Origin: Acidobacteriota bacterium | Lineage (GTDB): Bacteria; Acidobacteriota; Terriglobia; Terriglobales; Acidobacteriaceae | Direction of reading: 5' to 3' | Assembly: GCA_021779695.1 (NCBI GenBank) | Contig: JAJYAE010000138.1 | Coordinates: 1-11,040, forward strand | Length of the DNA: 11,040 nucleotides | Part shown: piece after piece, positions 3,450-7,709 of the stretch | How positions within the stretch are numbered: position 1 is the stretch's first letter | Layout: every line of letters starts with the position of its first letter | Position numbers and translations under genes: made by a program | The notes under the pieces: generated by a model | Told to the model about the DNA's origin: nothing | Seen by the model: the letters and a program-made list of their open reading frames with translations, nothing else | Databases searched by the model: none

Positions 3450-3550
3450 ATGGTGCACACAGTTCAGTGGTGAGTTGAGGTCGTGATTTCCTCGGTCTCA
3501 AAAGCAAGACAGGGGGCACCTGTCTCCATCGCGATCCAAGTCTCTGCTCT

Positions 3551-3590
3551 CCCACCCAAGGTCTCCACTTGCGTGGAGACCTTGAATGGG
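3551..3590 (-). other. Repeat hairpin B, copy 1
   Basis: Eighteen-base arms enclose the loop TTGC. The inner 11 bp (AAGGTCTCCAC with its complement) are perfect. Two outer positions are C-A mismatches on the plus strand and G-U wobbles in minus-strand RNA. Confidence 0.75.
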
Positions 3591-3635
3591 GCACCCAGAT
3601 GGATGGCGCATGTGTGAGAGGTGTTCGACGCCCAC

Positions 3636-3665
3636 CCATTTCGTCTGCTGATGCAGACAAAATGG
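3636..3665 (-). other. Repeat hairpin A, copy 2
   Basis: Identical to hairpin A of copy 1, 216 bp further on, including the single position that pairs (G-U) only in minus-strand RNA. Confidence 0.75.
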
Positions 3666-3766
3666 ATGGGGCACACAGGTCAGTGGTGAGTTGAGGTTGT
3701 GATTTCCTCGGTCTCAAAAGCAAGACAGGGGGCACCCGGTTCCGTCGCGATCCAAGTCTCTGGTCT

Positions 3767-3806
3767 CCCATTCAAGGTCTCCACTTGCGTGGAGACCTTG
3801 AATGGG
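3767..3806 (-). other. Repeat hairpin B, copy 2 (perfect 18-bp stem)
   Basis: CCCATTCAAGGTCTCCAC at 3767-3784 and its exact reverse complement at 3789-3806 enclose the 4-nt loop TTGC. In minus-strand RNA it lies about 30 nt past the stop codon of the zinc dehydrogenase gene. It could therefore block or end read-through and protect the 3' end, although no T-run follows it. Confidence 0.8.
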
Positions 3807-3834
3807 GCACCCAGATGGATGGCCGTGAGATTCC

Positions 3835-4851
3835 TTAGCTGACGTCGATCATGATTTTGGTGAAGCGGGCGGGGTCGCGGTCCCATGCGGCGAAGATGGC
3901 GGGCGCTTCTTCGATGGGGACGGTGTGCGTGACGGCGTCTTCGACGGGGAAGCGGCGCTCTTCCAACATGCGGATGACGGAGCGGAAGTCCTCTGGCTGC
4001 GCGTTGCGCGAGCCGAGGATGTCGAGCTCCTTCTGGACGAAGAGGCGTGTTTCGTAGGCGACGTTCTCTTTGGCATAGCCGATGTAGACAACGCGGCCGG
4101 TGAAGGCGACCTCTTCGACGGCGGCACGGAAGGTCTGCGGGAGGCCGATGGCTTCAATGATGACGTCGGGGCCGCGGCCGCTGGTGAGCTCGGCGAGGCG
4201 GGTGTGGAGATCTTCTCGCGCGGTGTTGATGAGGTAGACGGCGCCGGCCTTTTGCGCGGTGGCGAGCTTGGCGTCATCAAGATCGATGCCGATGACGGTG
4301 GCTCCGCGGAAGGCTGCACCGGCGACGGCGCCGAGGCCGACACCACCGCAGCCGATGATGGCCACAGTGTCTTCTGCCGCGACGCGGCCGCGGGCGGCGG
4401 CGTGGAAGCCGACGGTGAGCGGCTCAACGAGGCAGAGCTCCTTGAGGGTGAGGCTGGCGCTGTAGAGTCGCGAGGCTGGCGCGTTGATGTATTCGGTGAG
4501 CGCGCCGTCGCGCTGGACGCCGAGGGTCTGGTTGAACTGGCAGGCGTTGGCGCGGCCACGGAGGCAGGCCGGGCATTGGCCGCAATTGGAGTAGGGCGAG
4601 AGCGTGACTTCCATGCCGGCGGTCCATTGCGGATGGGCGGGGTTGGTGTGGACGACGGTGGCGGCGACCTCGTGACCGGGAATGCGCGGGAAGGTGATGA
4701 GCGGATTGCGGCCGCGGTAGGAGTTGAGATCGCTGCCGCAGAGGCCGACTTTGTGGACGCGGAGCAGGATGTCGTCTGTTGTAACGGGCGCGGGCTCGGG
4801 GACGGAATGAATGGCGGCCTGGCCGGGAGCTTCAAGAACAAGGGCTTTCAC
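3835..4851 (-). CDS. Zinc-dependent medium-chain alcohol/polyol dehydrogenase
   Basis: This 338-aa cytosolic NAD-dependent oxidoreductase belongs to the sorbitol / L-idonate / galactitol-phosphate dehydrogenase group. It has a GroES-like N-terminal domain and a Rossmann domain. Catalytic zinc ligands fit Cys38, His60-Glu61 and Glu143. The structural-zinc lobe has Cys90, Cys93, Cys96 and Cys104. The nucleotide loop is GCGGVG (167-172), and Asp190 at the end of the second strand favours NAD over NADP. The start is GTG 4851, with AGGAGA 7 nt upstream; the open frame continues far upstream but that part is the antisense of the neighbouring gene. It is divergent from a dehydratase of the altronate family, so it may oxidise an aldonate or polyol feeding that enzyme, for example as a substitute for a mannitol-type UxaB. 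Exact substrate unknown. Confidence 0.9.
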   Translation of the reverse strand: MKALVLEAPGQAAIHSVPEPAPVTTDDILLRVHKVGLCGSDLNSYRGRNPLITFPRIPGHEVAATVVHTNPAHPQWTAGMEVTLSPYSNCGQCPACLRGRANACQFNQTLGVQRDGALTEYINAPASRLYSASLTLKELCLVEPLTVGFHAAARGRVAAEDTVAIIGCGGVGLGAVAGAAFRGATVIGIDLDDAKLATAQKAGAVYLINTAREDLHTRLAELTSGRGPDVIIEAIGLPQTFRAAVEEVAFTGRVVYIGYAKENVAYETRLFVQKELDILGSRNAQPEDFRSVIRMLEERRFPVEDAVTHTVPIEEAPAIFAAWDRDPARFTKIMIDVS

Positions 4852-7483: not shown

Positions 7484-7525
7484 AAAAACACTTCGGGGGA
7501 CGCTGGAAGCGTCCCCCGAAGTGTT
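7484..7525 (-). terminator. Strong intrinsic terminator of the Lys/Ala peptide gene
   Basis: AACACTTCGGGGGACGCT (7487-7504) and its exact reverse complement (7508-7525) enclose a 3-nt loop. In minus-strand RNA this 18-bp GC-rich stem begins 21 nt after the TAA of the peptide gene and runs straight into five U residues (7488-7484). It may also act weakly in the plus direction, where TTTT follows at 7529-7532. Confidence 0.92.
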
Positions 7526-7546
7526 GCCTTTTGGTTGGTTGACCCG

Positions 7547-7618
7547 TTACTTCTTCTTCGCGGTTTTCTTCGCGGCCTTCTTCGCGGGTGCCTTCTTGGC
7601 TGCTTTCTTCGTTGCCAT
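7547..7618 (-). CDS. 23-residue Lys/Ala-rich histone-tail-like peptide
   Basis: The 24-codon frame from ATG 7618 to TAA 7547 encodes a peptide starting MATKKAAKKAPAKK and ending AKKK. It contains 11 Lys, 8 Ala, 2 Thr, 1 Pro and the initiator Met, with a KKAA-type beat. It resembles the basic C-terminal tail of histone H1-like or HU-like DNA-binding proteins, but without any globular domain, so binding to DNA, RNA or another polyanion is a guess. Translation is supported by AAGGGAGA (7634-7627) about 8 nt before the ATG. Transcription is supported by a near-consensus promoter at 7681-7709 and a terminator at 7484-7525. The predicted mRNA is about 190 nt and monocistronic. It is far shorter than normal annotation limits; the complete signals argue that it is real. 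Confidence 0.85.
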   Translation of the reverse strand: MATKKAAKKAPAKKAAKKTAKKK

Positions 7619-7635
7619 TTGCCTATTCTCCCTTT

Positions 7636-7652
7636 TCGATGGGTTGCATCGA
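7636..7652 (-). other. Leader hairpin next to the ribosome site of the peptide gene
   Basis: TCGATG (7636-7641) and CATCGA (7647-7652) form a 6-bp stem with a 5-nt loop ending directly at the Shine-Dalgarno sequence in minus-strand RNA. It overlaps the alternative palindrome GCATCGATGC (7646-7655), so two mutually exclusive structures are possible. Confidence 0.45.
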
Positions 7653-7654
7653 TG

Positions 7655-7672
7655 CTGCAATTTGAATTGCAG
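7655..7672 (-). promoter_or_regulatory. Inverted repeat at the predicted transcript start of the peptide gene
   Basis: CTGCAATT and AATTGCAG are perfect 8-bp arms with 2 nt between. With the -10 box at 7681-7686 the transcript should start near 7674, so the repeat covers about +3 to +20. It is well placed as an operator or as a 5'-end hairpin protecting the mRNA. Confidence 0.55.
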
Positions 7673-7680
7673 TTGAGGAA

Positions 7681-7709
7681 TGTATAGATTCACGAATGCT
7701 CAGTGTCAA
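7681..7709 (-). promoter_or_regulatory. Near-consensus sigma-70-type promoter of the peptide gene
   Basis: On the minus strand the -35 box TTGACA (7709-7704, perfect) and the -10 box TATACA (7686-7681) are separated by exactly 17 bp. A T-rich run lies just upstream of the -35 box, like an UP element. It is the best promoter match in the window and implies strong transcription. Confidence 0.88.

Follow-up and report, generated by a model that had tools for sequence, protein, structure and literature searches.

RNAIII is a dual-function bacterial RNA. The same is true of SgrS (PMC4021124) and of VcdRP, whose protein is 29 aa long (PMC8672173), and coding small RNAs as such are already known (PMC5521070). 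On the protein side, the KPAA domain of AlgP and PhaF have been described as histone H1-like tails rich in lysine and alanine (PMC9239181), and Chlamydia Hc2 varies in length through lysine-rich repeats (PMC2848022). Here we analyze a Lys/Ala (K/A) micro-ORF unit that resembles both groups, found in the window, i.e., the whole stretch of 11,040 nt of the acidobacterial contig JAJYAE010000138.1. We consider it rather probable that this unit is a conserved, normally single-copy, dual-output gene, which would serve as the mRNA for an H1-tail-like polycation and have, in addition, a function at the RNA level.

Parts of the unit and selection on its frame

All parts of the unit lie on the minus strand of the window. 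The -35 hexamer TTGACA (7704..7709) is followed, after a 17-nt spacer, by the -10 hexamer TATACA (7681..7686), and the predicted +1 is A7674, 56 nt from the ATG. A 5′-end hairpin, CTGCAAT-TCAA-ATTGCAG (7655..7672), begins 2 nt past the predicted +1, and a second leader hairpin, TCGATG-CAACC-CATCGA (7636..7652), lies directly 5′ of AAGGGAGAATAG (7623..7634), which is both the ribosome-binding site (RBS) and a conserved unpaired motif. The micro-ORF MATKKAAKKAPAKKAAKKTAKKK (7547..7618) has, in its re-derived translation, 23 aa plus TAA, with 11 Lys and 8 Ala. It is followed by an AAGGCAA motif (7524..7530) and by an intrinsic terminator (7484..7525) with the core GGGGGACGC/GCGTCCCCC, an 18-bp stem (7525-7487) and a U-tract (7488-7484). 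The neighbours, both on the same strand as the unit, are a CPBP/Rce1-type protease (PF02517) upstream and an RsmE-type methyltransferase (PF04452) downstream. Every element of the miniature Lys/Ala peptide gene proposed by the sequence-only reading (promoter, leader, RBS, 24-codon frame and terminator) was thus confirmed in the sequence. Its further statement, that these are the strongest expression signals in the window, found no backing in the consensus scanner, which listed no promoter anywhere in the window; the stem is the longest among the 13 listed. The rule used by the scanner calls for a final T in the -10 box, and the promoter of the unit went unlisted because TATACA ends in A. The scanner placed the terminator stem on the plus strand only, as the stem already takes up two of the five Ts that form the U-tract (7488-7484) on the minus strand. 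When K/A criteria were applied (12-60 codons, K+A ≥75%, K ≥40%), exactly one ORF passed on both strands of the window, the 23-aa micro-ORF, and none passed in 2 Mb of random DNA with the composition of the window (one strand, ATG starts); the conservation of the unit is a stronger test of its reality than this comparison. Elsewhere in the window (3464-3886), two adjoining minus-strand ORFs carry near-identical segments (GAPFKVSTQVETL...TEEITTSTHH), which suggests a tandem repeat of roughly 200 bp.

The RNA elements were compared among related units. The -35 box was TTGACA in 134 and TTGACT in 30 of the 164 distinct units, the -10 box was TATACA in 117, and the spacer was 17 nt in all 164, in a search that admitted only spacers of 16-18 nt and TATA- or CATA-type -10 boxes; three loci with TAGATT (L282, L287 and L290) stand outside this count. 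A hairpin begins no more than 5 nt from the predicted +1 in 155 of 157 distinct leaders, and the second hairpin ends no more than 6 nt from GGGAG in 116 of them, with other stems, such as TCCAT/ATGGA in the short-peptide clade, also occurring at this second position. The folding z of the 157 leaders averages -3.06. Two-sided pair changes were observed in both hairpins (C-G/T-A and A-T/G-C in hairpin 1), in an alignment that was fitted to model R2 and therefore leans towards it (of 90 matches, the 64 with GGGAG were retained, and 63 of these are distinct); RNAalifold detected no common pairs on the unfitted alignment A2. The AAGGGAGAATAG motif is invariant in A2, in which 65 of the 66 sequences had been selected by that exact motif, but GGGAG was also found upstream of rsmE in 19/19 genomes of the ORF-less genus described below, independently of motif selection. 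Of 165 distinct 3′ regions, 90 have an AGGCAA motif no further than 70 nt past the stop codon (2.65 expected from shuffles). A terminator that satisfies the strict rule is present in 126 of 163 distinct 3′ regions, 107 with the core. The core GGGGACGC/GCGTCCCC was detected in 10 of the 12 genomes searched, as a single occurrence except in G003 (the genome of locus L022), which has two, and therefore it is no generic terminator of these genomes. Hence, the unit shows conserved sequence signals for a promoter and a terminator of its own, with a predicted transcript of ~190 nt.

The 164 distinct units encode 107 distinct peptides of 12-76 aa, and in 163 units the peptide has 12-32 aa. The 107 peptides consist of 53% K, 32% A, 7% T and 3% P, the value for Lys having a built-in floor, as the choice of the ORF required ≥25% Lys. 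There is no D or E in any of them, Arg occurs in two, and they end in KKK (70/107) or KKH (28/107). When 60 close pairs, mutually independent and equal in length, were compared, the substitutions at codon positions 1, 2 and 3 were 47, 28 and 252, respectively, and the changed codons were synonymous in 221 and non-synonymous in 66 cases. This bias, which is free of the Lys floor, indicates that the frame is under protein-level selection, so that the identity of the micro-ORF as a gene is strongly supported by its pattern of change; together with the conserved promoter, RBS and terminator, the synonymous-biased evolution upholds the earlier claim of a gene. Furthermore, of the 151 Ala codons at position 2, 150 are GCA, compared with 389 of the 930 Ala codons elsewhere, a bias that reads as a synonymous constraint, at the RNA or initiation level, on top of the frame. 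At locus L201, a similar leader and RBS are followed by a 76-aa ORF that is entirely of the K/A type; therefore the length of the peptide looks free and its composition conserved.

Distribution and gene context

The check proposed by the sequence-only reading, a search of acidobacterial genomes for K/A ORFs with a promoter and a terminator, found the unit to be recurrent. A scan with the RsmE protein yielded 43 acidobacterial loci, and the unit was present in 43/43. A scripted check placed it 5′ of rsmE, in the same orientation, in 41 of them; this is also its position in L023, which has Ns inside the ORF, and in L041 the unit is on the strand opposite rsmE. Hence, 42 of the 43 named loci have rsmE downstream of the unit and in the same orientation. 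The promoter spacer was 17 nt in 43/43 scored sequences (42 loci plus the window; the sequence of L007 ends just upstream of the ORF). As the peptide HMM (A1) proved insensitive, with matches at E≤0.05 in nine of 80 family genomes and none to the known copy in G006, it was replaced by a DNA pattern and then by the leader model R1. Within the class of G003, the DNA pattern matched 29 of 299 genomes, 28 of them with the K/A gene and one (L066) by chance, and the reversed-pattern control matched 1/299. These finds include a clade with peptides of 12-17 residues, e.g., MATKKKAKKKKKH.

The leader model R1 comprises promoter, leader and RBS, and excludes the pre-terminator region and the terminator; it is a sequence-only model because RNAalifold, run on the MAFFT alignment A2, gave no consensus pairs. 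It was built from the family of G003, and its reach outside this family is limited. R1 matched 91 of 100 genomes of the family, 88 of which have a K-rich ORF in the unit (G037, G202 and G069 are without one). The nine of the 100 family genomes with no R1 match may have incomplete assemblies or may truly lack the unit, and R1 does miss real copies, since G332 has no R1 match yet carries an ORF-less unit. At E≤0.01, 103 of 299 class genomes were matched, a count in which some matches are longer K/A proteins and which includes 17 genomes counted by a sole, weak match with an E of 0.0013-0.0085 (G341, G181, G119, G330, G126, G248, G154, G264, G135, G253, G283, G178, G169, G237, G241, G244 and G130). 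Among 247 phylum genomes R1 matched 30, 26 of them already in the class draw and the other four (G419, G430, G436 and G538) being the weakest matches. No match to the unit was found in plasmids, and among the 80 viral pattern matches listed, of at least 120, none had a K-rich frame after the motif.

The unit is normally single-copy, with one family genome (G363) having two different copies on two contigs (L234 and L279); other extra matches were a split unit in G066, a longer K/A protein in G071 and a contig-end piece in G083. The leader of L299 (G066) has an insertion of ~60-70 nt ahead of the second hairpin, and the ORF (MATKKGGSKKGGSKKGSKKH) is intact. In total, 233 loci were examined: 207 with a K-rich ORF, 14 with the unit and no such ORF, and 12 missed by the regular expression. 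Some genomes are repeated among the 207 loci, which reduce to the 164 distinct leader-plus-ORF sequences. One of the 14 is L023, which was not counted as a loss owing to its Ns, so that 13 are left. Among the 12, L198, L282, L287, L290, L299 and L300 had ORFs after all, L007 is cut off, L189, L196, L199 and L203 encode K/A proteins of greater length and have no unit, and L204 has neither.

The gene downstream of an intact unit is convergent in the short-peptide clade and in the L145 clade, where it encodes a coiled-looking protein; in L041 and L110, rsmE is on the strand opposite an intact unit. In L096, L102, L113 and other loci of the short-peptide clade, the convergent gene has ~985 codons (in L113 we take it, from reading its sequence, to be a UvrD-like helicase), and rsmE is located beyond it on the opposite strand. 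A further, deeper set of seven units (L185, L190, L191, L193, L194, L197 and L200) encodes peptides that start with MKNATKK, MKTATKK or MKNAAKK; these units share a similar promoter, 5′ hairpin and AGGGAGAAT, and their terminator sequences are unrelated.

Loci that lost the ORF and retained the RNA

The 13 ORF-less loci have kept the promoter, the leader, GGGAG and the terminator. A scan for short K/A ORFs in them gave a single candidate, of 13 residues with a GTG start, in L175, and its orientation was not matched to that of the unit. In 12 of the 13, rsmE lies 199-321 nt downstream of the unit start on the same strand, with the terminator in between, and these 12 form one clade, with support 100/99, in a midpoint-rooted rsmE tree with 72 rows, in which long branches were flagged outside this clade. 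The mean pairwise identity within this clade was 0.34 upstream of the unit, 0.66 in the promoter, 0.51 in the leader and 0.71 in the RBS-like motif, the last three values being partly due to ascertainment, and, for regions outside R1, 0.63 in the pre-terminator and 0.72 in the terminator; it was 0.34 in the former ORF, 0.33 in the spacer to rsmE and 0.61 at the start of rsmE. The former ORF has drifted to the level of the flanks and the terminator has been retained.

Because R1, by which the 13 loci were found, contains promoter, leader and RBS, a bait-free check was run, in which 19 genomes of one genus were fetched by rsmE alone and the upstream region was inspected. The TTGACA-17-TATACA/C promoter was present in 18/19 (the contig of the 19th starts inside it, with the -10 box intact), and a terminator of the form GGGGA(A)GCGC/GCGC(T)TCCCC in 18/19, G602 having a run of Ns between the arms. 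A K-rich ORF was observed upstream of rsmE in 0/19. Eight of these genomes were already among the 13 ORF-less loci and 11, including G332, were new. The sequence-only reading had held that hairpins persisting without the frame would point to a non-coding RNA; 88 of the 91 family units keep the frame, and one clade did lose it and kept the RNA. The 13th locus, L174, is situated between the thiolase-like and the coiled-looking genes of the L145 clade, with 77.8% and 66.5% protein identity to the neighbours of L145, and its downstream gene is convergent. Judged from gene context, it looks like a separate, second loss of the ORF.

The 13 ORF-less RNAs carry 38 copies of GGCAA between GGGAG and the terminator (3.12 expected from shuffles), L175 having one only. 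Of the 12 leaders that were folded, four (L176, L178, L180 and L174) showed no folding excess (z -0.1 to 0.8). The ORF-less unit is on contigs of 4.8-6.4 Mb in G202, G285, G210 and G349, so misassembly is unlikely. With the peptide profile (E≤0.01), an insensitive tool, other K/A proteins were detected in two of the 13 ORF-less genomes (G349 and G300). Two such proteins of G349, which is without the micro-ORF, L205 and L219, have KKVSIKAQRNNGPL at or near their end; it is possible that they substitute for the lost peptide. These comparisons suggest that the RNA probably fulfils a role that is separable from that of the peptide. The function of the RNA may be younger than the peptide, given the unrelated terminators of the seven MKNATKK-type units.

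Interpretation and comparison with known systems

Sequence comparison demonstrates that the frame is under coding selection, that the RNA parts are conserved and that the RNA was kept where the ORF was lost. The unit could be an ordinary mRNA for a polycationic microprotein, with RNA parts that serve stability and translation only and with ORF-less copies that are decaying wrecks. A 5′-proximal hairpin, a strong RBS and a start-proximal codon constraint do fit a highly expressed mRNA, and ORF remnants can be read by eye, with ACG at the old ATG in L176 and A-T-R-T-A-K-K-stop in L181. However, decay would remove the parts jointly, and wholly in some species, whereas the unit is kept in all 19 genomes picked by rsmE alone, and the ORF-less terminators are more alike than the starts of rsmE (0.72 and 0.61), with the body of the ORF at flank level; we regard this explanation as unlikely. 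It is also quite improbable that the RNA of the ORF-less clade has become a cis-acting, attenuator-like leader of rsmE and is a plain mRNA elsewhere. The location of rsmE 199-321 nt downstream on the same strand in 12/12 clade loci, with the terminator in between, would be accommodated by such a role, but the ORF-less L174 has a convergent downstream gene, and GGGAG and GGCAA are common to ORF-bearing units of the L145 clade whose downstream gene is convergent. A lysine-sensing leader peptide, or attenuator, acting on the downstream gene in all lineages would explain why Lys codons are placed directly 5′ of a terminator with rsmE downstream on the same strand in 42/43 loci. In such a system the regulated gene is always downstream on the same strand, and here intact units have convergent downstream genes or, in L041 and L110, rsmE on the other strand; in addition, rsmE is not a lysine gene, which leaves this proposal with a very slight chance.

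A purely non-coding RNA with an incidental K/A frame could persist without the ORF, as is the case in 13 loci, but it is hardly credible in view of the excess of third-position (252 vs 47 and 28) and synonymous (221 vs 66) changes and of the K-rich frame kept in 88/91 family units. The palindromic terminator might instead be kept as an insulator that ends transcription from neighbours on both strands, the rest of the unit being a passenger. The stem is indeed very strong, palindromic and placed between genes, and the neighbours are convergent in several clades, but the retention of promoter and GGGAG in 19 genomes, the excess of GGCAA and the selection on the frame are left unexplained, and this role is very unlikely. 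Finally, the AGGGA sequence fits the ANGGA core of the CsrA binding site, and the terminator has a weak, sub-threshold Rfam match to RsmW on the plus strand, which would speak for a sponge RNA that binds CsrA/RsmA through AGGGA. CsrA (PF02599) was found in 0/12 genomes, while 3/14 control genomes were positive, which refutes the sponge for these 12 genomes and makes its probability close to nil.

Under the dual-output model, a near-consensus promoter would give the ~190-nt transcript, and a hairpin a few nt from its 5′ end, together with the strong terminator, would make this transcript stable and presumably abundant. In most lineages a strong RBS would direct the synthesis of a near-pure Lys/Ala polycation of 12-30 residues, probably disordered. 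The peptide most likely acts like a free-standing histone H1-type tail, by composition rather than by sequence, and would neutralise a polyanion such as DNA, RNA, the ribosome or polyphosphate. As in the sequence-only reading, we infer that it is abundant and that it binds nucleic acid or another polyanion. The RNA would act independently, by means of the hairpins at its 5′ and 3′ ends and of the unpaired motifs GGGAG and GGCAA. Its action is presumably in trans, since a convergent gene lies downstream of some intact units and of the ORF-less L174. Hfq was found in 12/12 genomes, and with CsrA in 0/12 this makes base-pairing more plausible than a CsrA sponge, the likeliest role of the RNA being that of an Hfq-assisted, trans-acting small RNA. 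The leader hairpins and the codon-2 GCA might have no purpose beyond translation initiation and mRNA stability. Peptide and RNA may also cooperate, with the polycation binding to the RNA that encodes it or to partner RNAs. Of the two options in the sequence-only reading, a polycation or a coding regulatory RNA, the data favour a combination rather than either alone. The stronger form of the model has two separable outputs, a 12-30-residue polycation and a small RNA, produced from one transcript of a new gene family present in about nine of ten family genomes, with one lineage (a whole genus and its relatives), and apparently a second, having dropped the peptide and kept the RNA. We give this form slightly better than an even chance.

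Frames of 12-30 codons are of a size commonly skipped by gene callers, and this gene, present in most of the examined genomes of a soil-bacterial family, belongs to no database family above cut-off. No match above cut-off was obtained for it in Rfam, Pfam, NCBIfam or PADLOC, and Rfam 15 gave 0 matches at gathering score for the window and 10 related loci, six of them ORF-less. The 23-mer of the window had no Pfam match at E≤1 and in NCBIfam matched only valine--tRNA ligase (4.1 bits) and no H1-like/HC2 family. The 30-mer of L030 stayed below the curated cut-offs of PF07382 (15.2 bits vs 40), NF038053 (15.3 vs 80) and NF050153 (17.8 vs 100), and the 76-mer of L201 reached 7.7 bits with PF07382, far below its cut-off. 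Among the open-access papers searched, none of those listed is evidently about the K/A gene and none was found with the exact string KKAAKKAPAKKAAKK, and a Granulicella omics paper (PMC7074687) has no mention of small RNA, non-coding, histone or intergenic.

Longer K/A proteins of relatives (L199 and L203) have, as in the unit, the AAGGGAGAAT ribosome-binding site and a MAIKK/MATKK start. These proteins (L199, L203, L205 and L050) measure 86-176 aa, however, and carry additional segments that are C-terminal or acidic; no two-hairpin leader unit is present in L199 and L203. The last two (132 and 86 aa) share a C-terminal segment (SGRSGKKVT...KQAIAIGLSEARK) behind the K/A head. When compared with the H1-like proteins AlgP, PhaF, Hc2 (PF07382/NF038052) and the Burkholderia H1-like protein (NF038053), the micro-ORF product has a similar composition of Lys, Ala and some Pro and Thr, and the 107 distinct peptides are, like those of the H1-like/HC2 group, rich in K and A and free of acidic residues. 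By this analogy, to which the sub-threshold HC2 and H1-like matches of the L030 30-mer add, the peptide would be a disordered polycation that acts by charge, as H1-type tails do. In the known proteins, however, such tails are parts of, or make up, much longer proteins, whereas in the unit the tail is the whole product, i.e., a natural minimal polycation in which length is free and composition kept.

The unit resembles the dual-function RNAs in its predicted short, terminated transcript, its small ORF and its apparent RNA function, and its codon statistics show an ORF selected for its protein, as in those RNAs. It differs from them in that its peptide is a near-pure K/A polycation, and in that evolution has separated the outputs, the ORF being lost and the RNA kept. 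Species with both outputs and the RNA-only genus thus constitute a natural experiment on the passage from mRNA to non-coding RNA. Coding small RNAs and H1-like tails are already known; what is new is a stand-alone K/A tail of 12-30 residues as a family-wide gene, and a genus that keeps only the RNA.
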